Positions 43,431 through 64,000 of a stretch of 64,000 nucleotides of DNA are shown here, piece by piece. The stretch's first letter is position 1; each line of letters begins with the position of its first letter. The notes beneath the pieces were generated by a model, which saw only the letters and a program-made list of their open reading frames with translations, had not been told where the DNA came from and made no database searches. The translations under genes were made by a program, and so were the position numbers. This DNA is from Ktedonobacterales bacterium (GTDB lineage Bacteria > Chloroflexota > Ktedonobacteria > Ktedonobacterales > DATBGS01): assembly GCA_036557285.1 (NCBI GenBank), contig DATBHW010000005.1, positions 124,001 to 188,000 on the forward strand. Reading direction: 5' to 3'.

Positions 43431-46325
43431 TTATGTACTCTGGCAACACTCAGGACCAGCTCTATTTCCTTGCGCTGTGTCGCTGATTACCCTATCGAAA
43501 AGATACTCCCCAACCAGATGAAGATGCTCCCACATAATCGGATGGAGATATTGCCACATATCCTCTGGCACAGGCTGACCACGCCTGGCAGATTCCTGAG
43601 CAGCGACTTCAAGATAGCGAGTATTCCATACAATGATCGCGTTGATGACCAGGCTTAACGCCAGGATGCGCCTGAACTGCGCTGCGGAGTCTCGATCACT
43701 CACGCGCCCCTGTTGGCCGAAAAAAATCGCCCGTGCCAGGGCATCAACCGATATACATCTATGCTGTCCTGCCAGCACTCTTTGACGCAGGGAAGCGTCT
43801 ACAATAAAGTTCAGGATATAACGTGTCCTGGCAATACGGCCTACTTCCTGAAGCGACTGGCGCAGCGTATTTCCCTCATCCATATTCTGTAGCTTCGGGA
43901 TGAGAAGAGAAGGGCGGATCAATCGGTCTTTTAATGACGCGGCAACCCGGTTCATTGTCTCCCATTGGGTAATAATCAACGGATCGCGGGTGGCATATAG
44001 CAAAAGGGGATCGAGTATCCCGTAGGAGGCTCCCTCTTGCGCTCGAATCATTATCTGGTCGGGCAGGTCATCCAGGGGCAGCGCCAGGCGATACCCCAGT
44101 AACTCGAAGAGACCATAGAGAAGATCGGTGCAGCCAGGGGTATCAGTAGCATGTTCCTGAATAGGGAGCAAATCCTGATAAACAAGGCCATCCAGAGTAT
44201 AAGGCGCTTCCTGCGCCAGAGGACTCACAAGACCTATCCAATACTGGATCGCCTGATCAGAAACATGGCTATAGATGTTCACTTTTCGACCCAACGCATC
44301 GCCAGATGCGCGATAGCGCGCATACGGGCCTGAGACAAGCCGCGCAAATTCGCTCGCATTTGACGAAGAAACAGCGCCAGAGCCAAAAGCTCTGGTCAGG
44401 GGCAGGCTTTGATGAAAGGCAATCAAGACCTGGATGGCCTGTTGCAGCGTCTCTTCACGGAGGTACCAATCATAGACCCGTACAAGCTGACCATGTGGAA
44501 TACCGGAGGCAGCGGCCATTGCTGTTAGTCCAATATTCGTAGCCTCAGCTACCAGCACCGCCAGAAGCGTAGATCGAATCGTTTCCTGATGCCTGGGGGT
44601 AGGCTCTCGTCTGGTGGTCAGGTGATCAAAAGCCGAGGTAAATCCAGTCCAGCTATCAACCTCTAAGAGAAGCTGGGGCAGACCAACCCTTGGCAACAAG
44701 GCCGTCAGTGAGCGGCGCATCGAAGCAGCGCCTGCGGGCGTCTGGAGGCGGTCCTGGGCGGTACGTATGAGTCGGCCATCTTTTATCTGAATGGAGGGAT
44801 GATCCAACAAGAGTCCGGCTGCTCTGGTCGCCAGGGCATCTAGCTCCGTTCTGGCTTGCGCCAGGTAATCCTCTCCATTGTGTGGTAAGCCACTGGTCAC
44901 GAACCAGGATATGCGCTCCTGACGCCATTCAGTGGGCGTATAGAGACCAGCAGACCAAGGGGCATAGTTACGACTTCCTTCTACCGAAAGTTCTCCAGAT
45001 CGCAGTGCCTGGCGGACCTGGTAGAGCAGGCAAAGTTCCCAGGCGCGCCTATCTATGCCATTGGGGCCAACTACTGCCCTCATCCAGCGTTCCGGCACAA
45101 AGCCAAGCGGAGCATCTTTCGGCGCTTTTTTGCGATGCTCACGATCCATCGTATGCAAAGTCTCCAGTCCTGCCAGCACAGGACTATATGCGCCCGGCGA
45201 GCTAAAGCGCAGCATTTGCAGCAGCACGCGCGCAGGTTCTCGTACCTGGCTAAATCGCTGTTTGAGCAAAGCAAAAAGGCCCTCGACTTCATTCTCATCA
45301 AGGGACCGACTTCGGCTTACAAGCGTGCTCACCTGCTCACGAGAGACTTGCTGAAAGATACGATCTCGCACCCGATGCGTGGGAACCTGGGGATCAAGGA
45401 GAACCTGCGTAATACCGCGAAACAAGCGCGCGCTCGTGAGGTTAGCCTGAACCTGCTCCATTTGAGCCTCTCTTAGCTCAGCATTGGCCCGCGCAAACAA
45501 ACGCCCTATCAGGGTATCGAACATCTCGACAATCACATCGGTGATCTCTGGGCCGCGCACGGTCAGGAAAGCCAGAAGCAGTGCGTACCGTTTGGCAGGT
45601 GGATAGCGTCGAAGGGCCTGAGCAGAAAGACGCCTTACAATAGCTGCCCATTGCCAGAGGCGCGGAGGTTGAATGCCTATCCAATCAATGGTGTCGGGGA
45701 GGGCTGCCCGAACCACCTCAAGCCGACGCCCTTCATCGCGGATCGCCTCAGTTGAGGCCGCATGTGGAGGAGTCACAAGCGTCGCCAGAATACTCCTTCC
45801 CTGGCATGTTCGGCAGAGTCCATCCAATTGATCTCGCTGCGCCTGGGTCAGTTGATGTGCAAGGTTCTGAAAGAGGGTCTCCTCGGTTTCACGGCGTACT
45901 TGATACACGATTCTCTGGATAACAGTCTTTGCAGCAGGCCGGAATATCTGCTGACTGGCTAGCCAGCCATAAGCTGCTTTGATGAGTTCAGTAGTATTGG
46001 CGGTTTGCAGAACCTGCGCAGCGAGGAAGGATCGCAGCAGCCCCGTATCTTCAGCAGTAAACGAGCGCAGGCGCAGATAGTCCTGCACCGCCTTCATATC
46101 TGTATTGTGGAGTACAGGGCAATTTTTGTATTGAATGACCGTCTCTGGTTGAATACCCAACTGGGCGCCGATGCAGGCGATAAGCGCTTCTGGCAGCAAT
46201 GCAGGATGCGCAGCCGCTATCGGGTCGGTACGCGCCCAGATAAGCAGTAAGGCGCGCTCCAGCCGCTGGAGGTCGTTATGTACAGCATTCACCAGGGTGA
46301 GATCGCAGGAACTCAACCTTATCAC
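43431..46325 (-). CDS. Tn3-family transposase-like protein, first catalytic Asp replaced
   Basis: A 964-residue protein matching Tn3 TnpA over its length. The late block SGDALGRKVNIYSHVSDQ, the EHATDTPGCTDLLYGLFELLGYR segment with the second Asp (Asp728), and INAIIVWNTRYLE with the Glu (Glu906) are present. The first catalytic position, normally the D of SSSDGQ, is Asn656 (SSSNASEF). The N-terminus is about 60 residues shorter than usual. Its GTG start overlaps the stop of the upstream glycosyltransferase (GTGA). No resolvase and no clear terminal repeats are visible. It may be inactive or repurposed. Confidence 0.85.
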   Translation of the reverse strand: MIRLSSCDLTLVNAVHNDLQRLERALLLIWARTDPIAAAHPALLPEALIACIGAQLGIQPETVIQYKNCPVLHNTDMKAVQDYLRLRSFTAEDTGLLRSFLAAQVLQTANTTELIKAAYGWLASQQIFRPAAKTVIQRIVYQVRRETEETLFQNLAHQLTQAQRDQLDGLCRTCQGRSILATLVTPPHAASTEAIRDEGRRLEVVRAALPDTIDWIGIQPPRLWQWAAIVRRLSAQALRRYPPAKRYALLLAFLTVRGPEITDVIVEMFDTLIGRLFARANAELREAQMEQVQANLTSARLFRGITQVLLDPQVPTHRVRDRIFQQVSREQVSTLVSRSRSLDENEVEGLFALLKQRFSQVREPARVLLQMLRFSSPGAYSPVLAGLETLHTMDREHRKKAPKDAPLGFVPERWMRAVVGPNGIDRRAWELCLLYQVRQALRSGELSVEGSRNYAPWSAGLYTPTEWRQERISWFVTSGLPHNGEDYLAQARTELDALATRAAGLLLDHPSIQIKDGRLIRTAQDRLQTPAGAASMRRSLTALLPRVGLPQLLLEVDSWTGFTSAFDHLTTRREPTPRHQETIRSTLLAVLVAEATNIGLTAMAAASGIPHGQLVRVYDWYLREETLQQAIQVLIAFHQSLPLTRAFGSGAVSSSNASEFARLVSGPYARYRASGDALGRKVNIYSHVSDQAIQYWIGLVSPLAQEAPYTLDGLVYQDLLPIQEHATDTPGCTDLLYGLFELLGYRLALPLDDLPDQIMIRAQEGASYGILDPLLLYATRDPLIITQWETMNRVAASLKDRLIRPSLLIPKLQNMDEGNTLRQSLQEVGRIARTRYILNFIVDASLRQRVLAGQHRCISVDALARAIFFGQQGRVSDRDSAAQFRRILALSLVINAIIVWNTRYLEVAAQESARRGQPVPEDMWQYLHPIMWEHLHLVGEYLFDRVISDTAQGNRAGPECCQST

Positions 46326-47668
46326 GTCGCCCCTCGCTTCTGGGAGGGCATGTCAAGCGTTGATAGCCCCTGCCTGTGAGCGCCTACATGTTGAGTCTTC
46401 TCCCAGTTGTTGATGCCTCTTAACTGGCGCAGCGTAGCGCGCAGGGAAGCGTAGGAGAGAATCCATTGGTAAGGCAGATAGGCAAGAGCCATCACCACTG
46501 GTGTTTTCCAGGAAGGTTTCAGTTTGTGAGCATCGGTGAACTCATAGAGTCCGATGACTGAAAGAACGAAATGAGCTATAAGCAGATAAAAAGGCAGGTC
46601 CAGAATAATGGCAACACCGGCAGGTGTCTTGATGGTGAACATCATGATCAGCGAGGCAAGCACATACAGCCCCAGGAGCGCCTGAGCAGATGGGAAGGCA
46701 AGGGTATAGAATGCCAGCAGACGCTGACCAAAAGTAGGCAGATGTTTCCATTCCCCCTTTATCAAAGTCTGCAAGAAACCCTGGCTCCAGCGCGTCCGCT
46801 GGCGAATGAACTGCTCCAGGGTCGGGGGCGTCTCCTCGCGTGTGACATAGCGATCATCATAGACAACACGCACCGGCTCTTTGAGGCAGCTAATGCGAAT
46901 ACCTATATCAGCATCTTCGGTCAGGTTATATTCATCCCACCCACCTACGCGATTCAGTATGGCGCGGGTAAAAAATACCGTATTGCCACCAAGGGTAATG
47001 GACCCTCTGCGCGCATGATAATGCAGACGACTTTTAAACCAGAAGAAATACTCCAGCACGTTCAATGTAGAATACCAGCTTGACTGGAAATTCATGAGTT
47101 GCACGCCACATTGGATAACCGGGACATGCTCCTGTAACATCAGGGTGTTCACAATGTTAAAGATGTCCGGGTGGATGTCGTCCTCAGCGTCGAAGATCGT
47201 CACGACCTCATTGTGCGTGTTTCGCAAGCCCACATTCAATCCATGCGGCTTGTTGATAGGGCGATCATTGTAACTCACCCCACGCACGGTATGTATTCCC
47301 GCTGCCTGTAACTGGTTAATCTTCTGCTGAGCTTGCTTAATTGTTCCCACATCATCCGCCGAGCAGATAACAACTACTTCCAGCAGTGACAGCGGATAAT
47401 GAGCACTTACCACCCGCTCGATAGTTGTCTGGATAACATCTTCCTCATGCCGGGCAGGCAGCATGACAGTAAAGGTTGTGCGCGGTGGGAGAAAGCGTGA
47501 TGGTACCTGTCCCTTCTGGTGAGCCTCCCGTTGATCCCAGGTATACAGCATGAGATAGAGAGTATAGACAGACTGAAGGATGAGCAGAACAGATATAATA
47601 AGTGAGCCAGGAATGACAACACTGACCCACAAGTTTGCAGCAGGGAGAGAGGCCAAAACAACATTCAT
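46322..47668 (-). CDS. Processive family 2 glycosyltransferase
   Basis: A 448-residue membrane glycosyltransferase. An N-terminal membrane segment (about 14-43) precedes the GT-A domain, which has VMLPARHEED, the DAEDD metal site (160-164), TEDADIG (250-256) and the processivity motif QRTRW (290-294). Three or four membrane segments close the protein. This layout fits polysaccharide synthases such as cellulose, poly-GlcNAc or hyaluronan-type enzymes; the sugar cannot be told. The stop overlaps the transposase-like start. A GGGGTAAG site precedes the ATG. Confidence 0.9.
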   Translation of the reverse strand: MNVVLASLPAANLWVSVVIPGSLIISVLLILQSVYTLYLMLYTWDQREAHQKGQVPSRFLPPRTTFTVMLPARHEEDVIQTTIERVVSAHYPLSLLEVVVICSADDVGTIKQAQQKINQLQAAGIHTVRGVSYNDRPINKPHGLNVGLRNTHNEVVTIFDAEDDIHPDIFNIVNTLMLQEHVPVIQCGVQLMNFQSSWYSTLNVLEYFFWFKSRLHYHARRGSITLGGNTVFFTRAILNRVGGWDEYNLTEDADIGIRISCLKEPVRVVYDDRYVTREETPPTLEQFIRQRTRWSQGFLQTLIKGEWKHLPTFGQRLLAFYTLAFPSAQALLGLYVLASLIMMFTIKTPAGVAIILDLPFYLLIAHFVLSVIGLYEFTDAHKLKPSWKTPVVMALAYLPYQWILSYASLRATLRQLRGINNWEKTQHVGAHRQGLSTLDMPSQKRGAT

Positions 47669-47717: not shown

Positions 47718-48191
47718 TTACTTTGTCTTATCGCCTGGAAGATCAAGGTTCTGCACATCCTCAACACAGCCATCGGACTGTGTTCGCACAATGTAAATCC
47801 TCTCAGCCTGCCAACCATCAGGCCGCTGTGCAGTAACCAGATAGACGCGCATTTCACCTCCTTTGGCTTGCGGGTGGGCGCTAAGAAACTCCGTCGTGAA
47901 GGTGATGCCCTGGCCGACATCAAACGCGCTCTGCTCGGACGCCTGCTGACGAAGTTCTTCTATTGAGAGACGCGCCTGAAGTGTTGGACAAAGCTGATGC
48001 CACCCCAGCGCCCCGTCTCGTGTGACAACTGATTTCATAAAGAGATCAGCGCGAGTGGGAGGCACGCTATGAGCCGCGCCCGAAGAAGCAGCAGCAGCGA
48101 AAGCACCCGCGCCTAACAGCACAACCAGACCAGCCAGGAGCATCAGGGACACCAATGGCCTACGCAGTACCCTCGCTTCCACTCTCTTCAT
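47718..48191 (-). CDS. Exported or membrane-anchored protein of unknown function
   Basis: About 157 residues. A basic start (MKRVEARVLRRP) and a hydrophobic segment (about 12-34) form a signal or anchor. The mature part (TRADLFMKSVVTRDGALGWHQLCPTLQARL onwards) has an alpha+beta pattern like NTF2-type domains, similar in layout to the outer domain at 14008, and contains two Cys. The start at 48191 is set by GAGGAG 5 bases upstream. It precedes the GT2 gene by 49 bases and probably shares its transcript. No function is assigned. Confidence 0.6.
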   Translation of the reverse strand: MKRVEARVLRRPLVSLMLLAGLVVLLGAGAFAAAASSGAAHSVPPTRADLFMKSVVTRDGALGWHQLCPTLQARLSIEELRQQASEQSAFDVGQGITFTTEFLSAHPQAKGGEMRVYLVTAQRPDGWQAERIYIVRTQSDGCVEDVQNLDLPGDKTK

Positions 48192-48329
48192 GATGGCTCC
48201 TCGAAGGCTGCGCCAGGCCATTCATTGTTCCCTTCTGATACCTTTTTGTTCCCGCATTCTAGTTTTATCGCTCCCGGAATTTTTTTTCTGTGTTTTCTAC
48301 TACAAACCTTTCGGGTTTCTGCTCCCATC

Positions 48330-49898: not shown

Positions 49899-49906
49899 AG
49901 CCCTGG

Positions 49907-51248: not shown

Positions 51249-51526
51249 GTATGCCTCCTTAGCTACAACGCTCATCCCTGCGCATCTGACGGTGCGGCTC
51301 ACCGTCGCCATCAACGCTCAATTTATCCAATGCTTCGAGGGCGCGAGAACCCCCTTTACTCTCTACCCTATCCCAAACCATATGTTCTAACCCCTCTCAA
51401 GATAGGCATCTTAGAGGAGAGTTTTTCACTCTCCAAAATGTGGATACAAGACTAGCCAAAAGATAGTCATCCCTTTTTCTGACTGGACTCTGGCAAGAGA
51501 AGCAATTTTCCAGACAAGCTGCCTGT

Positions 51527-53578
51527 TCAACAAAGAAGCGGCAGGGTTCTGGCTTTCAGCGGAAAAGCCTTGCAGAAAAACCTGAAAATATGAGGGCGTG
51601 ATAGAGAAGTAGAACCAGCAGCGATGCTATCAATCCCCGATTGCTTAGGGGAGGGCGCATACTCTGTTAGCTTCATGACGATGGCGGTGATATGATCGAG
51701 GCCGCCGTGTGCCTTTGCCTGTCCAATCAGCTTATTGCTCGCCAGTGTTACATCCGAGTGCTGGCGCATTATCATTTCAAGGTCTGCATCAGAAAGTATC
51801 TCCCAAAGTCCGTCTGAGCAGAGAAGCAGTTGATCATCTGCGCCAATAGGCAGCCGAAAAGAATCAACCTGTACATCTGGATGCTGACCCAGGCTTCGGT
51901 ACACCCGGCTTCGGCTCAGACCTGTGCAAACATCATCACATTGCATCTTTCCTGCGGCAACACGCATTTCAGCAATTGAATGGTCAGTCGTCACACGACG
52001 CAGGGAAACGTGGGAAAGCAGCAAATAGGCGCGGCAATTACCGACGTTGCAGATAGTTGCCTCATGGCAAGAAACCAGTGCTGCCGTCACGCTGCATCGG
52101 GCAGTAGAGCTTTCCCGTTGATTTCGCCAATAGAGCAGTTGGTTGGCGCCCTGGAGTGTGCTTTCCAAATGAGCAGACAAGTCTTCGCACGGAATATCTT
52201 CTTGAAGAAGACGAGGCGCTAGAGACCGAAAGATCGTGTCAATAGTCCTACGGCCCGCGCTCTGTCCATCGGCGAAGCGCCCTACACTATCAGCAAGGAC
52301 CAGCAACGCAAACGGTTGAGGCTGTCCCTGCGCCCTTCGGGTACCCGTCACAGCCAGAAAACCATCTTCTTGCTCTCGGTCAGCCCGTATATATCCGCGA
52401 TCTGTCCTTGAACTGACTTGTATTCCCGGTGTTGGGAGCCTGTGTTGGTTCTTTTTGAGCCAACGGCTAAACTCTGCCACCGAACCACGCGCCATGTTGT
52501 GGCGGTTGAGCGCCGCTGATCGCCTGGACCACCACTTCACAAGCCTCAGCCTGGGGAAACGCTCGGCTATCGAGAGCATCAGAACCAGGGCTATACACAG
52601 GATAAGCCAGACGACCAGAAGCCCCAGCACAATGGCGGTGGGATCAATGGTGAAAACGCGAAAGGCGTCCCCCGGATGCTCCTGCGCAGAAGCAGGAAAT
52701 GGAAAAGGGGTACCACTGCCCCCGTTGACTGCCAACTCCCCAGTATCTGCAAAGCTGGCGTGCCCTGGTGATCGGGTAAGGAATGGAGCAACCTGCGCTC
52801 CTGGTTGCGGGGGTATGACGGTGAATTTTACGGACACGACCAATCCCGTTAACGTTCCCACAAAGAGCAGCGTATTGTCTCCGGTCAGATCGCCAACGTC
52901 CCATGCCTGATTCATCGCAAACTGGCCGCTGTTGTCTGCTCGCGCCTGAGCAACTGGCGTGGTGTGTTGATCGTTGAGATAGACCTGTACAGGTTCGTTC
53001 GGAGCAAAAGCCTGCCCACGGAAGCCCAGCAGATCATGTGGGTGCGGCGCATAGTTGTCCAGAACCACCCAGGGGGTGAAAGCCTGAAGTGTAATATCCA
53101 CAATGACAGGCTCGCTGCATTGCGGGTCCATAAAATACAGGTGATAGACACCTGGGGAGACCAGCGGAATATGCGCGCGGCCCGCCAGGTTGCCCCCGGT
53201 ATTGGTATGAACCGTCGTCAGCAGTGTGCCTTTCTGGCCTGTGGGATCGTTTTTCTGGTTGCCCAGGCGCACATCAATCTCTTCGTTGGGTTGAAAGTTC
53301 ATACCCGTAAAGCCAACATCATGGATAGGATGGAAACTATAGCTATCCAGGCCAACCAGCGGAGGCGGCTTCTCGCTCTCGGAGCAGGGACAGCCAGGGC
53401 TACATTGATCGTTTCCGGCGCTGGGAGACGGCTGCGCAGTGGGCGTCCGGGCAGAAGGATGCGCTACACTCTGGTGGCTGGCCCCCACCTGGGCAGGGCC
53501 GAAACAGCCAGCGAGCAGAGTAGCAGCCACCAGGACCAAAGCGCAGCAGCGAGCTATTTGCGTGGCCGTATGCTCCAT
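51527..53578 (-). CDS. Ig-like repeat receptor with cytoplasmic PP2C phosphatase domain
   Basis: 683 residues. A lipobox-like signal (LLAGC, Cys25), a Ser/Pro-rich linker, two Ig-like repeats (about 75-165 and 168-255; NFQPNEEIDVRL and AFAPNEPVQVYL), one membrane segment (315-337) and a PP2C domain (386-637). The four metal-site aspartates appear present: Asp405 (QEDGF), Asp430 (LADSVG), Asp589 (CSDGLWE) and Asp628 (LDHIT), though the usual GDSR is GNCR. It would dephosphorylate Ser/Thr proteins in response to an outside signal (inference). A GGAGGTT site precedes the ATG. It is preceded by a related Ig-repeat gene. Confidence 0.82.
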   Translation of the reverse strand: MEHTATQIARCCALVLVAATLLAGCFGPAQVGASHQSVAHPSARTPTAQPSPSAGNDQCSPGCPCSESEKPPPLVGLDSYSFHPIHDVGFTGMNFQPNEEIDVRLGNQKNDPTGQKGTLLTTVHTNTGGNLAGRAHIPLVSPGVYHLYFMDPQCSEPVIVDITLQAFTPWVVLDNYAPHPHDLLGFRGQAFAPNEPVQVYLNDQHTTPVAQARADNSGQFAMNQAWDVGDLTGDNTLLFVGTLTGLVVSVKFTVIPPQPGAQVAPFLTRSPGHASFADTGELAVNGGSGTPFPFPASAQEHPGDAFRVFTIDPTAIVLGLLVVWLILCIALVLMLSIAERFPRLRLVKWWSRRSAALNRHNMARGSVAEFSRWLKKNQHRLPTPGIQVSSRTDRGYIRADREQEDGFLAVTGTRRAQGQPQPFALLVLADSVGRFADGQSAGRRTIDTIFRSLAPRLLQEDIPCEDLSAHLESTLQGANQLLYWRNQRESSTARCSVTAALVSCHEATICNVGNCRAYLLLSHVSLRRVTTDHSIAEMRVAAGKMQCDDVCTGLSRSRVYRSLGQHPDVQVDSFRLPIGADDQLLLCSDGLWEILSDADLEMIMRQHSDVTLASNKLIGQAKAHGGLDHITAIVMKLTEYAPSPKQSGIDSIAAGSTSLSRPHIFRFFCKAFPLKARTLPLLC

Positions 53579-53651
53579 AGAGAACCTCCATCAGTAGACA
53601 GATATACAGTATTCTTTCAGCTATACGTTCTGGCCTGGAGCCAGAAAGGCA

Positions 53652-55016
53652 TCACTTTCCATCAAGTGGGCAGGTAAAGGGCGGTTGTGGCTGAACCTCT
53701 ACAGGCGTATCGGCAGGCGCCACGGTGATCGTGGCTACAGCCGTACCTCCACTTTTGCTGCCCGTCAGAGTGAACGCCAATTTACCCTTCTGGACATTAC
53801 TGGGAATAGTATAAGAACCTGCCGCTCCGACGTTGCCGTGCCCATCAACCTGGAAACAACTGATCATCTTCTCTGGATTGCCTGTGTAGACATGGACGAC
53901 CTCATTCCGCGCAAAACCTTTGGCATAGAAACTGATCGTCGTTCCAGGGCTTCCTCCGTAGGTGCTTGGCTGGACAACCGGGTTATAGGGGGCAACCGTA
54001 AAAGCGACTGAGGCTGGCGCCCGGCTTTGGCTTCCCATGAAGAGGAGCGTCTGTTTTCCTTTCAAGCCAAACGGGATCAGGAAGCCTGGCGCATTGGCGA
54101 AGGTTCCTTGCGCATTCGTCTGCACAATGGCGAGTGGTTGCCCAACAGCGCGATTGACAAAGACCAGCACTGTCTCATTGGGGCCAAAGCCTTTTCCCGA
54201 ATAGCTCAAAACGTTATCCGCCCTGATCGAGTAACTGGAGAGTTTCACCGTCGGGTACAGCTTCAACATGAAGAAGGTATTTGTAACCGGCGTTTGGCTC
54301 TTTACCCCCATGAAGATAAAGTAGTTATTTCCCTCCGCGCCGAAGGGAACCTGGAGCGGCGCCTGGCCTATGCCCCCGCCTTCGTCGGTCGTAAGTGTAG
54401 CGATGGGATCGGTTGACATACTGTCCCAGTAGACATTGACCTTCTCATGGGGCGCAAAACCTTTGGCAGTGACTTTTAGCGTATCGCCAACCTTCCCAAC
54501 CAGGGAACTCAGCTTCACGGTGGCAATGCTCCCGTTCTGAATGAAGCCCATAGATTGCGCAATCTTATCGCTGTTGCGCTGATGAGCCTGGATGATGAAG
54601 TTCCCGAAAGGTTGTGAAGCGGGCAGCGTAATCGCTACATTGCTAAAAGAGCCTGTCGCGTCTGTTTGTATGGAGTTAATGACCTTCCCTGGATCGTTTG
54701 CCTTCTGCTTAATTCGGAAATCTATGAAGACCTTGGGGTCAAACTCGCTGCCAAGGACGTTGATGACGGATCCCTGGTGAACCACTCCTGGTGTGAACAG
54801 GATAAACGGCGTATTGTTGCCGCCAGCCGGCCCCCCGGTAGGCACAATCGGAGTAGACGTGGGAATCTGTCCAGGGGCAGAAGGGGTAGCAGCACTGGTG
54901 CCGGTGGTATCCACTGCTGTGCCTGAAGGGCTGAAAGATCGCAGAAAGATACTGGATACTAAAGCAACGAGCAAAAGGATAACCACCCCCCAGAGCAAGA
55001 CCTTGCGACGGCTCAT
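53652..55016 (-). CDS. Membrane-anchored Ig-like repeat surface protein
   Basis: 454 residues. One N-terminal membrane anchor (about 7-29), a Thr/Pro/Ser-rich linker (about 30-65), then four Ig/IPT-like repeats, each with a strand motif of the form GF-x-P-N-E-x-V-x-V: GFAPHEKVNVY, GFGPNETVLVF and GFARNEVVHVY, with a more diverged first repeat. Most of the protein would lie outside the cell. It shares this repeat with the PP2C receptor 73 bases downstream. GGGGAG sits 4 bases before the ATG. Adhesion or ligand presentation is plausible. No sortase signal is visible. Confidence 0.75.
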   Translation of the reverse strand: MSRRKVLLWGVVILLLVALVSSIFLRSFSPSGTAVDTTGTSAATPSAPGQIPTSTPIVPTGGPAGGNNTPFILFTPGVVHQGSVINVLGSEFDPKVFIDFRIKQKANDPGKVINSIQTDATGSFSNVAITLPASQPFGNFIIQAHQRNSDKIAQSMGFIQNGSIATVKLSSLVGKVGDTLKVTAKGFAPHEKVNVYWDSMSTDPIATLTTDEGGGIGQAPLQVPFGAEGNNYFIFMGVKSQTPVTNTFFMLKLYPTVKLSSYSIRADNVLSYSGKGFGPNETVLVFVNRAVGQPLAIVQTNAQGTFANAPGFLIPFGLKGKQTLLFMGSQSRAPASVAFTVAPYNPVVQPSTYGGSPGTTISFYAKGFARNEVVHVYTGNPEKMISCFQVDGHGNVGAAGSYTIPSNVQKGKLAFTLTGSKSGGTAVATITVAPADTPVEVQPQPPFTCPLDGK

Positions 55017-55061
55017 AGAACTCCCCTTTCTACTGGACTGATATAGCTACCCGGATACCGA

Positions 55062-56744
55062 TTACTTTTCCACTTGATAAATCTGGAGTTCGATGCCTCC
55101 TCGTGGCATATCCCAGATACGTTGGGAATGTTGGAGGGCCTCCAAAATATAGTTCTCGCCGCCATCCCCGTTGTTAAGTTCCATAGCTTGCAGCATCTTA
55201 TTGGACATCACGATATAGTCAATGTTTTGCCAATTTTTGGCAAAGAGTTTATCCCGCACATCAGGATCAGCCGCCGCTTTCCAGTGAGAATGCGCCCACT
55301 TGTAATAAGGCGCCACATCATGGAGGTCCACCCAAAGCTCATCATCTATAATGACCCTGGCATTAGCAGGGATATGCTGGCGGATAAAAGCCAGTTGGTC
55401 GGTTTGCATATAGGTGACATTGAGTTTGTAGAGGTCGTGAGGCACTGTCCTACCATGTTCATCATGGACAAAAAAGTAGCCTGCTGATGGCGAGAGGAGC
55501 ATGGCCCATAAGGTGACAATGGCGACCCCCTGCATTGAAGTGGAGAGGGCAGCGGGACGCAGCCGGGCCAGAGGCCGAAGCAGAATTGCTCCAAGGATTC
55601 CAAGATTCATTGCCAGGAAGGGCAACAGAGGGACAACATAGAACTCCAGCATCTGGCTGCCGCGAATAAGATACAGGGCATAGCTGGCTGCCAGAAGGGA
55701 AGCTACAATATATCCCCGGTTACGTGGCCGCGAACTCCAGCCAATGATCAAATTACAAATCAAAGCCACACAGCCTAAAATCAGGATGAGCTTATCCCTG
55801 GGGAACCAGATGCCAAGGCCAAATCTCCAGAAGTCGCTGTTTACATCGAAAATGCTGCCTTGCCCACGATGTAACTGCCACCAGATGGTGTACAAAAGGG
55901 AAACGTGATCAGCCGGTGGATTATTCAGATCAAAATCGAAATGGCTCGGCAAGAGTTCGTTTTTCAACGTGGCGTACAGGAAATAGAGCGAGATGACTGA
56001 ACAGGAGGCGTAGAACCAGCTCCCCAGCGCAAAGCGATAATTCTCTTGCTTATGCACCTGGGTATAAAGCAGATACACAAAAACAGGCGCGAAGAAGATC
56101 GTGTTTTCCTTTGTAAGAACGCCTATCCCGAACGCCAGACCACTCAGCACCGAGGTAATAAGCCTCCCGTCATCCCGCGTGACCAGATAGAGGCTGAGCA
56201 ATATCCAGAAAACCATGATGTTATCTAACAGCACCTGGCGCTGGTAATAGACGGCCAGCGGTGAGAAATTGAAGAAAAAACAGGCAATCGTAGCAGCACT
56301 CAGACGCCCCGAAAACCGATAGGTGAGCTGAAACAGGAGAAAGATGCTGGCTATATGAATAAGCAGCATCAACACCCTACCAGTATTGATAGCATTGCCA
56401 AACGTCTGAAACTGGAAGGGCAAAATGCTCACCCACCCGCTAATCAACAGCCATCCTGCCGGAGCATGGTCATAGAAATAGGTATAAGGTTCAAGCCTGG
56501 CCTCGCGCAGCACCGACCAGGCTTGCTCCATATAGATGCCCTCATCGGTGATATAGAGCGGATACTGAAACAGATGGTAGCCATGAGTAAGCGTGCCTGT
56601 TATCAGAGAGAAAGCCAACAACACCTGCCCATACAAACCTGGCTTTGTGTGAGCGCCTGCCAGTGTGCCTGGTTTGCTCGCTGTAATATCTACCGAGTGC
56701 TGAGCAGGGGGAGCCTGAAGATATGGCGCTTCCTGATGACTCAC
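55062..56744 (-). CDS. ArnT/PMT-type (GT39-like) membrane glycosyltransferase
   Basis: A 560-residue protein with about eleven membrane segments. The first outer loop has YITDEGIYMEQAWSVLREARLEPYTYFYDHAP, containing the acidic Asp-Glu pair of lipid-phosphate-sugar-dependent transferases. The C-terminal soluble region (about 430-560, beginning VIIDDELWVDLHDVAPYY) is periplasm-facing in the family. It should transfer a sugar from a polyprenyl-phosphate donor to a lipid or protein. It starts at GTG 56744 and precedes the two Ig-repeat genes (45-base gap), so those surface proteins could be its acceptors (inference). Confidence 0.8.
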   Translation of the reverse strand: MSHQEAPYLQAPPAQHSVDITASKPGTLAGAHTKPGLYGQVLLAFSLITGTLTHGYHLFQYPLYITDEGIYMEQAWSVLREARLEPYTYFYDHAPAGWLLISGWVSILPFQFQTFGNAINTGRVLMLLIHIASIFLLFQLTYRFSGRLSAATIACFFFNFSPLAVYYQRQVLLDNIMVFWILLSLYLVTRDDGRLITSVLSGLAFGIGVLTKENTIFFAPVFVYLLYTQVHKQENYRFALGSWFYASCSVISLYFLYATLKNELLPSHFDFDLNNPPADHVSLLYTIWWQLHRGQGSIFDVNSDFWRFGLGIWFPRDKLILILGCVALICNLIIGWSSRPRNRGYIVASLLAASYALYLIRGSQMLEFYVVPLLPFLAMNLGILGAILLRPLARLRPAALSTSMQGVAIVTLWAMLLSPSAGYFFVHDEHGRTVPHDLYKLNVTYMQTDQLAFIRQHIPANARVIIDDELWVDLHDVAPYYKWAHSHWKAAADPDVRDKLFAKNWQNIDYIVMSNKMLQAMELNNGDGGENYILEALQHSQRIWDMPRGGIELQIYQVEK

Positions 56745-57056: not shown

Positions 57057-57080
57057 CTCCAGAGCCAGTTCCGGTAGCGG

Positions 57081-57157: not shown

Positions 57158-58255
57158 ATGTCAGAAAGGCTGACGATACAAGACATTGCCCGGTTAGCTG
57201 GCGTTTCCAAGGCGACTGTATCTCGCGTATTGAACCATAAGCCTGATGTAGACGCGCTCACGCGGCAGCGCGTCATGCGCATCATGGATGAGTACGCTTT
57301 TGTTCCCAGTATTACTGCCTCCGGGCTGGCTGGGGGCCGCCGGGGTATGATTGGCGTTCTGGTACCCGCTTTGACCTGGCACTTCATTCCCGAAGTGGTG
57401 CAGGGTGTTGCGGAGGTCGTCGAACGGAGCGCCTACGAACTCCTGCTCTACAGCATCTCTCAGCAAGAGAATCGCAAGGCGGTTCTTGACCGTATTCTGG
57501 ATACCAAGTTGACGGCTGGCCTGCTCGCTGTAGAGCCTGGATCATTTGTAGAGCGCCTGACCCAGTGGGCCGAAGGAAATTTTCCGGTTGTCCTGATTGA
57601 TGACCAGCACGTGCCTGCAAACACTCCCTGGGTCGGTGTTGATAACCGTATGGGCGCCGCTGCTGCCGTCCGTCACTTGATTGGCCTGGGCCATCGGCGG
57701 ATTGCTCACATCCGAGGGCCGCTTCAGTATCAATGCTCTCAGGAACGCTATCAGGGCTACCAGCAGGCGATGGTCGAAGCTGGCCTGGCGCTCGATCCGG
57801 CCTTCGTCCTGCAAGGGGATTTTCAGGTTGCCAGCGGACACGCCTGCGCGAGCACATTGCTCACACTGGCCGAGCGGCCTTCGGCGATCTTTGCCGCCAA
57901 CGATCACATGGCCTGGGGAGTTCTAGAGTTTGCGGGGGCGCATGGGCTGCGTGTTCCCGAAGATATAGCTGTCGTCGGTTTTGATGACACGCCCCCCTCG
58001 CAGTACAAACATCCACCACTGACAACAGTGCGCCAACCTTTTCAGGAAATGGGGCAGCGCGCTGCCGAACTTTTATTGTGGTTGATAGACCTGCCTCACA
58101 ATGGAGGCGAAGAGCGACGTAAAACGCTCCTCTCACTAGAGCCGCCTCTGCCCTTTCCAGGGTACAACGCGCCTCTGCACATTCAGTTGAAAACATCCCT
58201 TATCATTCGGCAATCATGCGGCGCTCAGCAGCTAGCTTCAATCGCTGGCGTGTAA
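57158..58255 (+). CDS. LacI/GalR-family transcriptional regulator
   Basis: A 365-residue repressor-type protein. The DNA-binding head is [27 protein letters not shown] (5-31), followed by a hinge and the periplasmic-binding-fold effector domain ([22 protein letters not shown] to [20 protein letters not shown]). Effectors of the family are usually sugars or nucleosides. GAGAGG lies about 7 bases before the ATG. It stands directly upstream of an ABC importer on the same strand and very likely controls it and itself through the operator upstream. The last 30 residues are longer than usual. Confidence 0.95.
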
Positions 58256-58447: not shown

Positions 58448-60115
58448 ATGAAACCCTGGCATCGCCGGGTGATGGCTCCAGCCCTGCTGTTGCTCGTTGC
58501 CCTCAGCATGATTCTATCTGGCTGTGGCGAGAGCAGCGGGAGCGGGAGCAAATATGGTGGCTCAGTAACCATCGTCCCCGCTCCCAATGGCGTGTTCACA
58601 AAGAACTTTAATCCGTTCCTTGCCAACAGTTCCCGCACCGGCACGCAGGGGATGATCTATGAAACTCTGCTCTTATTCAACCGGCTCAATGGCAATTCCA
58701 CCCCCTGGCTTGCCTCAAGCTATAGCTGGTCGAAGGACGCCACCAGTGTCACTTTCCATCTGCGCCAGGGCGTCAGGTGGTCGGATGGGCAGCCATTTAC
58801 CAGTGATGATGTGATCTTCACGTTGAAGCTGATGCAGCGCTTCCCCGCGCTTGATGGGAACTCGCTGTGGAGCACGATCCAGAACGTCAGCAATCCTGAC
58901 CCAAGCACAGTCACAGTGGCGTTCAAGCAGCCAGCAGTGACCATGCTCTGGTATCTCGGCGGGCAGACATTTATTGTTCCCCAGCATATCTGGGCGAAGA
59001 TCAGCGATCCGGCGACAGAGACGAACCCCAATCCGATTGGCACAGGGCCGTTTTTGCTGAAGTCCTTTAATCCGCAGCTCTACGTCCTCGGCAAGAATAC
59101 ACATTACTGGCAGGCCGGAAAGCCCTACGTGAATGAACTGCGCTATCCGGCGTATAACTCAAACACCAGCGCCGACCTGCTCCTATCACAAGGCGCGGTA
59201 GACTGGACAGGGCTTTTTACCCCCGATGTCGAAAAAACCTTTGTTTCTCGTGACCCGGAACACAATCACTACTGGTTCCCCTCAAGTGATGTAGTGATGC
59301 TGTATCTCAACACGGCCAAGGCTCCGTTCGATAATCTTATGGTCCGGCAAGCCCTCAGCGCAGTCATTGACCGCGAGAAAATCTCCAAGGTGGCTGAAAA
59401 TGGCTACGATCCTATAGCAAGCCCAACCGGGCTGGTCTTGCCCAGCAACCAGAAATACCTGGACCCGAAGTACTCCAGCCTCTCATTCAGCATGGATGCC
59501 GCCAAAGCAACCTCGCTGTTGGAGCGCGCGGGCTTCAAGAAGGGCGCTGATGGTATTTACGTTGATCACAGCGGCAAGCGCCTCGCCTTCAAGATTGATG
59601 TGGTTGCTGGCTGGACCGATTGGCTGACAGCTTCTCAGATTATGGCGAGCAACTTCAAGGCCATCGGGATTGACGCCAGCGTCAACGTCGCAACCTTTAA
59701 CGACTACATCAGCGCGCTCGCCCAGGGCGACTTCGACACCGCCATTTCCTGGACCAGCCCAGGACCGACACCGTACTTCCTGTACAACTCCATGCTGAAC
59801 AGTAAGAATACGGCGGCTATTGGGCAAAAGGCAACCTCCAACTGGGCGCGGTGGAATGACCACGCGACAGATGAACTGCTGAACAAATACGACAGTTCCA
59901 CAGATGAGGCGGCCCAGCAGGAAGCGATAGCTGGGCTCCAGAAAATCATGGTTGATCAGCTGCCGAGTATCCCGCTGATGTATGGCCCAACCTGGTACGA
60001 ATACAACACGACTCGTTTTGTAGGCTGGCCGGATCAGGACAATCCTTACGCGATGCCTGCGCCGTACAGCGCCCCGGACGCCGAACTCGTAGCACTTACT
60101 ATCCATCAGCGGTAG
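58448..60115 (+). CDS. ABC transporter substrate-binding lipoprotein, family 5
   Basis: A 555-residue extracytoplasmic binding protein with a lipobox at Cys26 (LSGC). It has the family 5 (DppA/OppA type) blocks: FNPFLANSSRTGTQGMIYETLL, VTFHLRQGVRWSDGQPFTSDDVIFT and VRQALSAVIDREKI. The family binds peptides, nickel, or oligosaccharides such as cellobiose and xyloglucan fragments. The LacI-type regulator upstream makes a sugar ligand more likely (inference). GAGGAGG is 8 bases before the ATG. It is the first structural gene of the importer, followed by a stable hairpin before the permease genes. Confidence 0.93.
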   Translation: MKPWHRRVMAPALLLLVALSMILSGCGESSGSGSKYGGSVTIVPAPNGVFTKNFNPFLANSSRTGTQGMIYETLLLFNRLNGNSTPWLASSYSWSKDATSVTFHLRQGVRWSDGQPFTSDDVIFTLKLMQRFPALDGNSLWSTIQNVSNPDPSTVTVAFKQPAVTMLWYLGGQTFIVPQHIWAKISDPATETNPNPIGTGPFLLKSFNPQLYVLGKNTHYWQAGKPYVNELRYPAYNSNTSADLLLSQGAVDWTGLFTPDVEKTFVSRDPEHNHYWFPSSDVVMLYLNTAKAPFDNLMVRQALSAVIDREKISKVAENGYDPIASPTGLVLPSNQKYLDPKYSSLSFSMDAAKATSLLERAGFKKGADGIYVDHSGKRLAFKIDVVAGWTDWLTASQIMASNFKAIGIDASVNVATFNDYISALAQGDFDTAISWTSPGPTPYFLYNSMLNSKNTAAIGQKATSNWARWNDHATDELLNKYDSSTDEAAQQEAIAGLQKIMVDQLPSIPLMYGPTWYEYNTTRFVGWPDQDNPYAMPAPYSAPDAELVALTIHQR

Positions 60116-60130
60116 CAGCCTCTATCCAAA

Positions 60131-60189
60131 GGCAGCAGCAAGGAGCTTGAGGGGCCACCAAGCGGTCTTCACAGCACCCTGCTGCTGCC
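60131..60189 (+). promoter_or_regulatory. Intercistronic inverted repeat after the binding-protein gene
   Basis: Perfect 10-bp arms GGCAGCAGCA (60131-60140) and TGCTGCTGCC (60180-60189), without a T-run. Such structures often protect the binding-protein mRNA or lower readthrough, giving more binding protein than permease. Its position 15 bases past the stop fits that. Confidence 0.5.
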
Positions 60190-60205
60190 CTTGAAGGGAC
60201 CGTCT

Positions 60206-61189
60206 ATGCATTACCTCCTGCGTCGGTTCATCTTTTATCTCGCGGCTCTCTGGGCTGCGCTGACGTTGAACTTTCTCATTCCGCGACTGATGCCAGGCGA
60301 TCCGGTTCTGTTACTGGTAGCGCGGCTTCAGGGGCAAGTTGACCCGCGTGCTGTCCAGGCGCTGCGCCTTCAGTTTGGATTGAATACCAACGCCAGCTTG
60401 TGGTCGCAGTACATCGAGTATCTGGGCAATCTGGTTCATGGCAACCTGGGTACTTCCATCGCCTATTTTCCCTCCTCTGTCGCTGAAGTAATCGGGCTTG
60501 GCTTGAAATGGACACTGATGCTGGTAGGCATTTCCGCCATATTGAGCTTTTTCATCGGCACACTCATGGGGACAGTAGCGGCCTGGCGACGAGGATCATG
60601 GTTCGATACCGTACTTTCGCCTCTGCTCACCTTTTTCTCCGCCATTCCCTATTTCTGGCTCGCGCTGATTGTTCTCTATCTCCTCGGCTTTATCCTGAAG
60701 TGGTTCCCGCTGACGGGCGCATACAGCCTGGAACTTGAACCAGCCTTCAGTGGCCCGTTCTTCCTGAGCGCGATCTATCACGGGACTCTGCCCGCCGCAA
60801 CCATCGTCATCAGTTCTATGGCTGGTTGGATGCTTGGAATGCGCAACGCCATGCTGACAACACTCTCAGAGGATTATGTCTTGATGGCGCAGGCCAAAGG
60901 GCTTTCTGAGCGGCGTGTCATGATCACCTACGCCGCTCGCAACGCGATCTTACCCAATATTACCGGCTTCGCACTGTCGCTTGGCTTTGTGGTTGGCGGG
61001 GCGCTCCTGACGGAGATTGTCTTTTCGTATCCAGGGTTAGGCTACATCTTGCTCCAGGCAGTGCAGTCTGATGATTTTCCGCTGATGCAGGGGATTTTCC
61101 TGATGATTGCTATTGCCGTACTTGGCGCTAACTTCCTGGCTGACGTGTGTTACGTGGTTCTCGATCCGCGCGTTCGGCAAGAAAGGTGA
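60206..61189 (+). CDS. ABC transporter permease, DppB type
   Basis: 327 residues with six membrane segments. The N-terminus MHYLLRRFIFYLAALWAALTLNFLIPRLMPGDP is typical of DppB/OppB. The EAA-type loop for ATPase contact is DYVLMAQAKGLSERRVMITYAARNAILP. ATG 60206 is preferred over TTG 60191 because AAGGGA lies 6 bases before it. It pairs with the permease gene 7 bases downstream to form the membrane channel. Confidence 0.93.
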   Translation: MHYLLRRFIFYLAALWAALTLNFLIPRLMPGDPVLLLVARLQGQVDPRAVQALRLQFGLNTNASLWSQYIEYLGNLVHGNLGTSIAYFPSSVAEVIGLGLKWTLMLVGISAILSFFIGTLMGTVAAWRRGSWFDTVLSPLLTFFSAIPYFWLALIVLYLLGFILKWFPLTGAYSLELEPAFSGPFFLSAIYHGTLPAATIVISSMAGWMLGMRNAMLTTLSEDYVLMAQAKGLSERRVMITYAARNAILPNITGFALSLGFVVGGALLTEIVFSYPGLGYILLQAVQSDDFPLMQGIFLMIAIAVLGANFLADVCYVVLDPRVRQER

Positions 61190-61196
61190 GTGAGAG

Positions 61197-62156
61197 ATGG
61201 CCGTAAGGCAAGACGACGCTCAATCTTTGCTTCAAGAGCAGCAAAACACTAGCGCGCCGCAGGAGCAGCCTGGTAAAGGGGCAGAGTTGACCGGCAAGCT
61301 CCTGAAGAAGCGCCGCATAAATCTAGCGATCTTTCGCCCGGTAAAGATTCGCATTGGCCTGAGCATCCTTAGCTTCTTCATCTTGCTGGCGATCTTTGGG
61401 CCTTTATTGATTCACCAGGATCCACAAGCGTTCAGCGCGGACGTATTATCCGCTCCATCAGCAGCGCACTGGATGGGTACCACACAGACCGGACAGGATG
61501 TTTTTGCCCAAGTCATCAATGGAACCCGTATGACCTTGCTGGTGGGTTTCTCGGTTGGGGCGCTGGCAACGCTGCTCTCCGTTGTCATCGGCCTCACCGC
61601 CGGCTACTTTGGCGGCGTGATTGACGAGTGTATCTCGCTGCTCATCAATATCTTCCTGGTAATCCCGGCACTGCCGCTGACCATTGTACTGGCAGGGTAT
61701 GTTCCTGTGCGCGGACCTTTGCCGGTAGCTATTGTCATCAGCCTCACAGGCTGGGCCTGGGGCGCGCGGGTGCTGCGGGCGCAGACACTTTCTCTACGTC
61801 AGCGCGAGTTTGTCGAGGCCGCGCGCGCCAGCGGCGAAAGTACGTTCCGCATCATTTTCGCTGAGATTCTGCCAAATGAGCTGGCGATTGTCGCGTCAAG
61901 TCTGATCTTCACGATCATCTACGCGATCTTTTCTGAAGTTGGGCTGGAGTTCCTGGGTTTGAGCGATGTTACCGTCACCAGTTGGGGCAATATGCTCTTC
62001 TGGGCAACAAACAACCAGGCGCTGCTGTTGGGCGCGTGGTGGTGGATCGTGCCGCCAGGGCTGTGTATCGCGCTTTTGGGTGCGGGGCTGGCCTTTACGA
62101 ACTTCGGAATTGATGAACTCACCAATCCGCGTTTGCGCGATGCCTCGCGTGGTTAA
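61197..62156 (+). CDS. ABC transporter permease, DppC type
   Basis: 319 residues: a cytoplasmic leader of about 55 residues, then six membrane segments. It has DPQAFSADVLSAPSAAHWMGTTQTGQDVFAQVINGTRMTLLVG, the DppC/OppC N-terminal outer motif, and an EAA loop REFVEAARASGESTFRIIFAEILPNELA. It partners the preceding permease. The gap of 7 bases marks one operon. The leader is longer and more charged than usual. Confidence 0.94.
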   Translation: MAVRQDDAQSLLQEQQNTSAPQEQPGKGAELTGKLLKKRRINLAIFRPVKIRIGLSILSFFILLAIFGPLLIHQDPQAFSADVLSAPSAAHWMGTTQTGQDVFAQVINGTRMTLLVGFSVGALATLLSVVIGLTAGYFGGVIDECISLLINIFLVIPALPLTIVLAGYVPVRGPLPVAIVISLTGWAWGARVLRAQTLSLRQREFVEAARASGESTFRIIFAEILPNELAIVASSLIFTIIYAIFSEVGLEFLGLSDVTVTSWGNMLFWATNNQALLLGAWWWIVPPGLCIALLGAGLAFTNFGIDELTNPRLRDASRG

Positions 62157-62206
62157 AACAACGCCTGTATTTCTGTATCACTCCCCTTTAGGGAAAGGTG
62201 AAAGAG

Positions 62207-63337
62207 ATGATGACTGATCCGGTGCTGGAAGTGAAGCGCCTGAGTGTTGATTATGCAAGCGCGTCGGGAGCAGTTCACGCCGTTGATGATGTGAGTTTCA
62301 CACTGCGTCGTGGGCAAATCTTTGGCCTGGCAGGCGAGAGCGGCAGCGGGAAATCAACGCTGGCCTATGCGATTGCGCGCCTGCTGCGCCCTCCCGCTGT
62401 GGTGACGCAAGGAGAGGTCTGGTTCTACCCACGACCTGGCACAGAGAGCCAGAACAACGAATCGCTTTTAGCGCCAATCAACGTGCTTCACCTCACGCCA
62501 GCGGGACTTCGCGCCTTTCGCTGGCGCAGGCTCTCCATCGTCTTCCAAAGCGCGATGAATGCGCTCAACCCGGTACTCGACATCAGCACACAGATTACCG
62601 ATGTGCTGCGGGCGCACGAGCCTGGTATGTCGCGCAAAGCGCAGCAGGAGCGCGCGCTGGAATTGCTTCGATTGGTCGGCATTGCCCCGGATCGACTCCA
62701 CAGCTATCCACACGAATTGAGCGGTGGCATGCGCCAGCGGGCGATCATTGCAATTGCGCTGGCGCTGAACCCCGACATTATCATCATGGATGAACCCACC
62801 ACCGCGCTAGATGTAGTGGTACAGCGCGAGATTCTCGCCGAAATCAAAGGCTTGCGCGAGCGGTTGGGCTTTTCCGTAATCTTCATCACCCATGATCTTT
62901 CGCTGCTGCTGGAGATGAGCGATCAGCTAGCGATCATGTACGCTGGCCGTCTCGTGGAAACGGCCACACAACGCCAACTCAATCGCCAGCCGCGTCATCC
63001 CTACACCTATGGACTCCTGCACTCTTTTCCAAAATTGCGTGGTCCCCGACAAAGTATGACTGGCATTCCTGGCTCTCCGCCCGATCTGAGAGCCGCGCCA
63101 TCAGGTTGCGCCTTTCATCCCCGCTGCTCGTTCGCGTTTGAGGCGTGCCATACAGCCATCCCTGGACTCTTAACTCCCTGCCCTGACGAGCCAACCCAGC
63201 AGGTTGCCTGCCACCTTTACAACGCCAGTATGCAGCCGCCTGGCCTCCCCAGCGAGTTTTCCCCCTCAAATGGTACACCATCTGACCCCGAGCTACAAAA
63301 GGAACCCACTCATGAGCATTCTTCGCCCCTCTACTAA
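62207..63337 (+). CDS. ABC transporter ATP-binding protein, DppD type
   Basis: About 376 residues. Walker A GESGSGKST, Q-loop FQSAMNALNP, signature LSGGMRQR, Walker B IIIMDEPTTALD and the switch His in FITHDL are all present. The C-terminal oligopeptide/dipeptide domain RHPYTYGLLHSFPKLRG...GCAFHPRCSFAFEAC, with its Cys cluster, may bind an Fe-S centre as in some family members. ATG 62207 or 62210 is likely; an in-frame GTG (62198) is less so. The 3' end overlaps the next gene by 26 bases. Confidence 0.93.
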   Translation: MMTDPVLEVKRLSVDYASASGAVHAVDDVSFTLRRGQIFGLAGESGSGKSTLAYAIARLLRPPAVVTQGEVWFYPRPGTESQNNESLLAPINVLHLTPAGLRAFRWRRLSIVFQSAMNALNPVLDISTQITDVLRAHEPGMSRKAQQERALELLRLVGIAPDRLHSYPHELSGGMRQRAIIAIALALNPDIIIMDEPTTALDVVVQREILAEIKGLRERLGFSVIFITHDLSLLLEMSDQLAIMYAGRLVETATQRQLNRQPRHPYTYGLLHSFPKLRGPRQSMTGIPGSPPDLRAAPSGCAFHPRCSFAFEACHTAIPGLLTPCPDEPTQQVACHLYNASMQPPGLPSEFSPSNGTPSDPELQKEPTHEHSSPLY

Positions 63338-64000
63338 TCCCCCTGCTCACAGGGGAGGATCACATAGTACAGTCGAGTCTTCAACCTGTTCGGTTGAAGA
63401 GAACCTGCCAGTATTAGAGGCCGTTCATATACGCAAAGAGTTTCCGCTGCGTCGGCTGAGGCTCTTTGGTCCCAGGCGCGGAGTGAAAGCAGTGGAAGAT
63501 GTTTCGCTCTCATTGCGCCCCGGCCATTCGCTCGCTGTGGTAGGAGAAAGCGGGAGCGGCAAAACCACCGTAGCCCGTTTACTGGCGCAGCTCTATCCGC
63601 CAACGAGTGGCAGCATCCGCTTTCGTGGCGCTTCCGTTGGACGAATAAGAGGGAGAAAGGTCAGGGCCTATCGCCGCCATGTGCAACTGATCTTTCAAGA
63701 CCCGTTCTCTTCGCTCAATCCCATGCACACCATCAGGTATCATCTGAATCGTCCTCTGCGCTTGTATAGACATGCCCGCTCGGCTGCTGAAGAAGAGCAG
63801 CAGGTCAAAACCCTGCTGGAACGAGTCAACCTTGTGCCTGCCGAGCAGTTTATCAATAAGTTTCCCCACCAGTTGAGCGGCGGTCAGCGCCAGCGAGTAG
63901 CGATTGCTCGCGCGTTGGCAGCGCAGCCAGAGGTTCTGCTGGCCGACGAGCCGGTTTCCATGCTCGATGTATCAATCCGGCTGGACATCCTGAACCTTTT
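63312..64000 (+). CDS. ABC transporter ATP-binding protein, DppF type (partial, runs off window)
   Basis: The first 229 residues of the second importer ATPase, reading MSILRPSTNPPAHRGGSH onwards. Seen: GESGSGKTTVARLLAQLYPPTSG, FQDPFSSLNP, HQLSGGQRQRVAIARALAAQPEVLLADEP and SMLDVS. The gene starts at ATG 63312, inside the end of the preceding ATPase gene (26-base overlap), with AAAGGA about 9 bases upstream. An unusual leader of about 38 residues precedes the ABC domain. The C-terminus lies beyond the window. Confidence 0.92.
   Translation, partial: MSILRPSTNPPAHRGGSHSTVESSTCSVEENLPVLEAVHIRKEFPLRRLRLFGPRRGVKAVEDVSLSLRPGHSLAVVGESGSGKTTVARLLAQLYPPTSGSIRFRGASVGRIRGRKVRAYRRHVQLIFQDPFSSLNPMHTIRYHLNRPLRLYRHARSAAEEEQQVKTLLERVNLVPAEQFINKFPHQLSGGQRQRVAIARALAAQPEVLLADEPVSMLDVSIRLDILNL

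Follow-up and report, generated by a model that had tools for sequence, protein, structure and literature searches.

PstP of Mycobacterium tuberculosis (1TXO) combines a bacterial PPM/PP2C fold inside the cell with a single transmembrane (TM) helix and an ectodomain described as PASTA-like (PMC12088040), while tPphA of Thermosynechococcus (2J82, 2XZV, 2Y09) is one short soluble catalytic domain. A survey of bacterial PP2C domains published in 2025 names PASTA, zinc-ribbon, and kinase domains as their partners; our search of the open-access literature found no mention of Ig-like or immunoglobulin domains in its main text (PMC12088040). In bacterial group I PP2Cs, the Asp of motif 5 is a ligand of the third metal, and catalysis depends on it (PMC4524716, PMC3375153). 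Group II PP2Cs do not have this residue, and some of them are still active with two metals (PMC4524716). In actinobacteria, Pmt of glycosyltransferase family 39 (GT39), together with Ppm1, O-mannosylates the linkers of secreted cellulases (PMC11727336). Here, we describe a locus that brings together counterparts of these elements. It is located in a stretch of 64,000 nucleotides (the window; contig DATBHW010000005.1, positions 124,001 to 188,000) from the assembly GCA_036557285.1 of a Ktedonobacterales bacterium, a soil-type member of the class Ktedonobacteria.

Three adjacent open reading frames (ORFs) on the minus strand encode a GT39-type transferase, a membrane-anchored protein with four Ig-like domains (IgA), and a protein in which another Ig-like module (IgB) is joined through a TM helix to a PP2C domain. 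The original prediction had assigned these gene types to the same positions, and ORF analysis, Pfam, and AlphaFold models confirmed them. It had also regarded the trio as a candidate for an undescribed signalling unit, to be checked by its conservation. This did not hold up: among the loci examined, the Ig-PP2C fusion was found only in this genome, and PP2C is present in the corresponding locus of one further genome. Our own reading is tentative and, in our judgement, slightly short of evenly probable: the genes belong to a surface-glycan locus with O-mannosylated Ig stalks, one of which is fused to a phosphatase in a receptor-like manner, and do not form a dedicated three-gene signalling unit. 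What the computations show is the gene content and the order of domains, together with homology, synteny, the predicted topology, and the history of the fusion.

The fusion protein shares with PstP the fold, the single TM helix, and the catalytic domain inside. It differs in the reversed order of domains, with the ectodomain first, in the Ig-like nature of this ectodomain, and in the absence of the third-metal Asp. PstP is the best Protein Data Bank (PDB) fold match of its PP2C domain (Foldseek E 2.8e-17, TM-score 0.82 on the target, 27% identity), and 2PK0 and 2J82 were matched as well. The best PDB sequence match is tPphA (E 9.3e-17), although the latter is soluble and has Asp where the fusion has Asn. 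The resemblance to actinobacterial O-mannosylation comprises the PMT family, polyprenyl-phosphate-mannose synthase, Ser/Thr/Pro linkers, and the association with cellulases (PMC11727336). In contrast to that system, GT39 here shares a conserved cassette with genes for Ig-repeat proteins, and the sugar and acceptors are predicted only. The closest PDB fold of IgA is 6xi3 (E 2.7e-13), which comprises extending-region tandem Ig repeats from a large bacterial adhesin, but identity is 16% and IgA consists of four domains on a TM anchor, unlike the giant adhesin. An analogy in working principle only, with no homology claimed, is offered by RsgI of Clostridium thermocellum, which, as outlined in PMC12203970, has an extracellular module, a TM helix, and an intracellular regulator near cellulase genes; this regulator is an anti-sigma factor and not a phosphatase.

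The product of the fusion gene begins with a helix that carries the lipobox LLAGC (residues 21–25), as seen in both model and sequence. The TM helix is followed by an Arg/Lys-rich stretch, in agreement with the positive-inside rule. The PP2C domain matches PF00481 (1.8e-8, above the cut-off) and was modelled with a predicted local distance difference test (pLDDT) score above 90 over most of its length. In the domain alignment used for this model, the Ig rows spanned the second repeat only, so that hardly any related sequences informed the modelling of the first. The predicted arrangement is thus an exported ectodomain, a single stop-transfer TM helix, and a cytoplasmic PP2C domain. The receptor-like topology proposed earlier is supported by the lipobox, the TM helix, and the model.

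Both halves of the fusion are also found apart. Over both repeats, the Ig module is 41–44% identical to the stand-alone or differently fused IgB of three relatives (G175, G019, and G252); these assignments have E-values of 1e-84 to 1e-94, and the next-best family is much weaker (1e-42). In G175, the gene adjoining that for IgA encodes a secreted protein with just two Ig repeats, a stand-alone IgB with 38% identity to the Ig half of the fusion. The nearest relatives of the PP2C domain are a TM-PP2C encoded in this locus on contig C5, at a distance of about 20 kb (48% identity), and a PP2C on contig C7 (46%), whose gene adjoins that of a Ser/Thr kinase. The fusion, C5, and C7 copies form a clade (support 100/99), in which the fusion and C5 copies are sisters (100/97). 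The similarity between these two extends through the TM helix, with a score of 80 versus a maximum of 47 in 500 shuffles, a score that is inflated by hydrophobic clustering. Given the separate IgB in G175, the IgB fused to a DPM1-type synthase in G019, and the sister TM-PP2C, the third gene is an ectodomain swap, namely, an IgB stalk joined in frame to a receptor-type PP2C that, according to the tree, was duplicated within this lineage.

Receptor PP2Cs composed of a signal peptide, an ectodomain, a TM helix, and PP2C are usual in the order Ktedonobacterales; seven such loci were inspected, five of which have an adjacent kinase gene. These proteins are the direct evolutionary parent family of the fusion, and differ from it in an ectodomain unrelated to the Ig repeats and in canonical PP2C motifs. 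Examples beside a Ser/Thr kinase gene are L045 6103–8448, L050 6560–9322, and L058 8515–10941. The ectodomain of these kinase-linked proteins comprises about 380 amino acids, has no Pfam match, and shows a faint likeness to trypsin-type proteases. No second Ig-PP2C fusion was detected among the 134 Ig-bearing and 67 PP2C-bearing ORFs of all loci examined. PP2C ORFs of 800–1000 amino acids occurring across the class were considered as further candidates and rejected, their N-terminal halves being unrelated to the Ig repeats.

The only other Ig/GT39 locus with PP2C is that of G019, where it is a separate gene from another clade of the tree. Orthology of this PP2C with that of the fusion was rejected in the approximately unbiased test (p 2e-7 for P0001 plus G019), as was a group of P0001, the C5 paralog, and the G019 PP2C (p 2e-6); both values call for caution due to long branches. 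PP2C thus appears to have entered the Ig/GT39 locus twice, independently, which lends weak support to a functional link.

The IgA model contains a TM helix (residues 3–25) and about four beta-sandwich domains (residues 68–434), with a mean pLDDT of 82. The residues between them (26–68) form a Ser/Thr/Pro-rich linker, and such linkers are present in both Ig proteins. No Pfam family was assigned to IgA, and a PDB profile search gave no significant match. The NCBIfam GxPGS Ig-like domain (NF058592) scored 29.4 and 23.4 bits, under the curated cut-off of 45. IPT/TIG (PF01833) was not matched by Pfam in P0001 or P0002; its cut-off was exceeded in a single case, an Ig protein from G231. Homology between the Ig parts of IgA and of the fusion (30% identity across 177 residues, E 3e-14) supports the common origin suggested earlier. 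Of the six repeats, one has the literal motif GF-x-P-N-E-x-V-x-V on which that suggestion was based (GFGPNETVLV), and the other five approximate it. Its use as a sign of direct Ig-Ig contact was not borne out. Such Ig-like domains occur in 59–84 of the 400 phylum genomes, which makes the motif a signature of the family and no proof of contact between IgA and the fusion. In G021 (L089), a gene for a large Ig-repeat protein (7453–10098) is directly followed by that for a Ser/Thr protein kinase (10311–12296).

The transferase matches PMT_2 (PF13231, 1.9e-8) and PMT (PF02366, 3.4e-7), both above the curated cut-offs. The acidic DE motif after its first TM region (ITDEGIY, D67 and E68) is invariant in the G019 ortholog, and the motifs HAPAG and RQVLLDN are also present. 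Its orthologs share 61% identity in G019 and 43–61% across other families of the phylum. GT39 probably transfers mannose to Ser/Thr of proteins.

A profile search revealed full IgA orthologs in 11 of the 400 genomes, representing seven families; identity is 41–54% in the ten further genomes. The GT39-IgA pair recurs in these 11 genomes, in agreement with the pairing originally proposed, and GT39 directly adjoins IgA in ten of them. In family f55 (G175 and G252), IgA is divergent from the GT2 and GT39 genes, and one of these or GtrA intervenes. GT2 adjoins GT39 wherever the contig is long enough, except in the window itself, where GT39 adjoins IgA and GT2 is about 7.4 kb from the IgA start, past other genes. 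The window GT2 is 72% identical to the gene adjoining GT39 in G019 and 60–74% identical to those in other families. Most genomes with IgA possess a further Ig gene, either IgB or a second four-repeat type, in this region or elsewhere. GT2-GT39-IgA is a cassette conserved over several families of Chloroflexota. In six of the 11 genomes (G019, G140, G175, G182, G231, and G259), an endocellulase of the Acidothermus E1 type from glycoside hydrolase family 5 (GH5) is encoded no more than 10 kb from IgA, with only one to six copies per genome, while the chance of such proximity is roughly estimated at 2% per genome. Four of these six genomes come from one family, which leaves about three independent cases. 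No description of a GT2-GT39-Ig-GH5 cassette was found in a limited search of open-access literature.

The closest relative, G019, belongs to another family of the same order and has a syntenic region. Its LacI and ATP-binding cassette (ABC) importer counterparts are 52–71% identical to those in the window, the values being 53% for LacI and 65–71% for the importer operon; LacI is divergent in both genomes. These genes are followed by GtrA, GT2 (72%), GT39 (61%), an IgA (53%) that bears a zinc ribbon at its N-terminus, and DPM1-TM-IgB. The locus also contains a free-standing PP2C, a GH38 alpha-mannosidase, and GH5, the copy 4 kb from IgA being about 63–65% identical to the window GH5. DPM1-TM-IgB (L051 6766–8715) has an unusual architecture, in which a DPM1-type mannosyl-phosphate synthase is fused via one TM helix to at least two extracellular Ig-like domains. 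Read-through of an in-frame TGA in this region was considered and rejected; the codon separates two real genes, DPM1-TM-IgB and PP2C.

The mannose-linked reading is based on DPM1-TM-IgB, GtrA, and GH38 in G019, on the contiguous genes DPM1-GT39-GT2-GtrA in G252, and on a DPM1 homolog in the window genome (contig C11, 54% identity). We infer mannose as the sugar, as well as the acceptors, the ligand, and signalling. Polyprenyl-phosphate-mannose synthase, which is fused or adjacent in relatives and has its homolog elsewhere in the window genome, would supply GT39. The latter would move mannose from polyprenyl-phosphate-mannose to the Ser/Thr/Pro-rich linkers of the exported Ig proteins. These would be membrane-anchored, probably O-mannosylated stalks, with secreted GH5 endocellulases and an importer of oligosaccharides as neighbours. 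The endocellulases, the alpha-mannosidase, and the LacI-type regulator with its importer suggest polysaccharide use at the cell surface. The fusion would couple an IgB stalk outside to PP2C inside and work like a receptor-type phosphatase, in which a change in the stalk, such as contact with a polymer or with other stalks, or glycosylation, may alter dephosphorylation of Ser/Thr-kinase substrates.

Several observations weigh against this reading. The fusion is known from one genome, the sole member of its family in the sample. The PMT_2 family takes in GT-C transferases other than protein mannosyltransferases, and a PDB sequence search with the transferase gave no match. In the PP2C domain, the third-metal Asp of motif 5 is replaced by Asn (GNCR, residues 513–516, aligned to GDSR of tPphA), and further motifs are changed from NED to QED, from DG to DS, and from DN to DH. 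The G+C content at third codon positions (GC3) is 0.48 in the PP2C half versus 0.60–0.69 in the rest of the gene and 0.63–0.77 in the paralogs. With the third-metal Asp gone, phosphatase activity is doubtful and catalysis is the weakest step of the proposed mechanism. The two outcomes that the original prediction regarded as fatal are both borne out in part: the trio is not conserved, and the phosphatase has lost its third-metal Asp.

The PP2C half may accordingly be read as dead or dying, the fusion just anchoring IgB as DPM1-TM does in G019. We consider this pseudophosphatase or anchor quite possible, though it falls short of being probable. The motif losses are partly common to the C5 paralog, which has GKNR at motif 5 and has lost the motif-1 Arg; two branches in the PP2C tree are long (0.92 and 0.83 versus 0.19 for the C7 copy); and a different enzyme, DPM1, is joined to the same IgB in G019. 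The GC3 drop confined to the PP2C half, the motif changes, and the long branch fit relaxed constraint. However, the four Asp residues for metals 1 and 2 (motifs 1, 2, 8, and 11) are kept in QED 403, LADS 428, CSDG 587, and LDH 627, the ORF is open, the fold is predicted with high confidence, and group II PP2Cs work with two metals (PMC4524716). A weakened phosphatase, a sensor pseudophosphatase, and a mere anchor are all compatible with the data.

It is conceivable, if rather unlikely, that GT2, GT39, and GH5 build and trim a surface polysaccharide, as in bacterial cellulose and Csl loci, with the Ig proteins as a wall scaffold and PP2C regulating synthesis. GT2 is BcsA-like and the most conserved gene of the cassette (60–74%), an E1-type GH5 endocellulase is adjacent, and Ser/Thr phosphorylation commonly regulates envelope synthesis. 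Yet LacI, the ABC importer, and GH38 alpha-mannosidase are adjacent in two genomes and point to breakdown and uptake, and the locus showed neither an export subunit nor a co-catalytic one. The model of the original prediction, in which IgA is a ligand and the fusion its receptor phosphatase through Ig-Ig contact, agrees with the neighbouring genes, the homologous Ig modules, and the receptor-like topology, but is very unlikely, as some genomes combine IgA with other Ig genes although their locus has no PP2C, and family expansion accounts for the Ig homology.

Features of the Ig/GT39 locus and its neighbourhood in the window (positions are those of the 64,000-nucleotide stretch)
Feature	Position	Strand	Evidence or remark
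GT-C glycosyltransferase, PMT/GT39-like (P0003)	55062..56744	minus	560 aa; Pfam and orthologs
IgA, TM-anchored four-Ig-domain protein (P0002)	53652..55016	minus	454 aa; AlphaFold model and orthologs
IgB-TM-PP2C fusion protein (P0001)	51527..53578	minus	683 aa; single uninterrupted ORF; AlphaFold model
Two Ig-like domains of P0001 (IgB module), residues 74-254	52817..53359	minus	homology to IgB of relatives
TM helix of P0001, residues 313-340	52559..52642	minus	hydropathy 3.25 over 316-334; model
PP2C domain of P0001, residues 385-638	51665..52426	minus	Pfam, Foldseek, alignments
Small secreted/anchored 167-aa protein	47718..48221	minus	no family match
GT2 membrane glycosyltransferase, cellulose-synthase-like domain	46322..47668	minus	BcsA match 2.8e-9
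Tn3-family transposase, between GT2 and GH5	43431-46325		start overlaps last 4 bp of GT2 gene
Secreted GH5 endocellulase (Acidothermus E1 type), lipoprotein-like signal	42089..43276	plus	PDB 1ece E 2.1e-120
LacI-family regulator, divergent from GT39 operon	57158..58255	plus	family match; G019 counterpart
Family-5 solute-binding protein, two permeases, two ATPases (oligopeptide/oligosaccharide-type ABC importer)	58448..64000	plus	last gene cut by window end

The three genes are separated by gaps of 45 and 73 bp, and Shine-Dalgarno-like stretches precede those for IgA and the fusion. Promoter and terminator scans gave results near chance level. The original prediction identified the trio but overlooked the wider locus with the LacI/SBP5 ABC importer, GH5 endocellulases, GT2, GtrA, and, just past the window, the GH38 alpha-mannosidase. 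The parts of this locus are spread over about 35 kb of the contig. The stretch from GT2 to the trio also contains PQQ, a LuxR-type regulator, and other genes, while GH38, GH5, GtrA, the second TM-PP2C, and another GH5 follow past the window. Homologs of the 167-aa protein (42–54%) adjoin IgB genes in G175 and G252, and G019 has one close to the locus; the protein may represent an unrecognised member of the Ig/GT39 locus. No terminal inverted repeats were found around the Tn3-family transposase at the settings used. The GC content drops at about 40 kb, the start of the GH5/Ig/GT39 region, from about 0.59 (positions 1–40000) to 0.54 (40001–60000). Upstream of LacI (57028–57107), a promoter TTGACA-17-TACACT is followed by the near-palindromic GGAACGGTTCC, and the counterpart gap of G019 has CGTAACCGGTTACG; these are probable autoregulatory operators, and there was no sign that the operators in this gap control the GT39 operon.

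There are few receptor-type PP2Cs, and most of them have no known input. The fusion took its ectodomain from a set of genes whose substrates are predicted (O-mannosylation, endocellulase, oligosaccharide importer), so that a guess at its input becomes testable. One such guess, speculative and improbable in its full form, is that an Ig-ectodomain receptor Ser/Thr phosphatase, which arose by ectodomain swap in a kinase-linked receptor PP2C, reads the state of O-mannosylated stalks or whether they touch cellulose, and resets a pathway of Hanks-type kinases. The kinase and receptor phosphatase of Ktedonobacterales are an unstudied pair. With IgB joined to a mannosyl-phosphate synthase in one genome and to a phosphatase in another, the locus clearly illustrates the exchange of modules, and the cassette may define a surface O-glycosylation system tied to cellulases in Chloroflexota.

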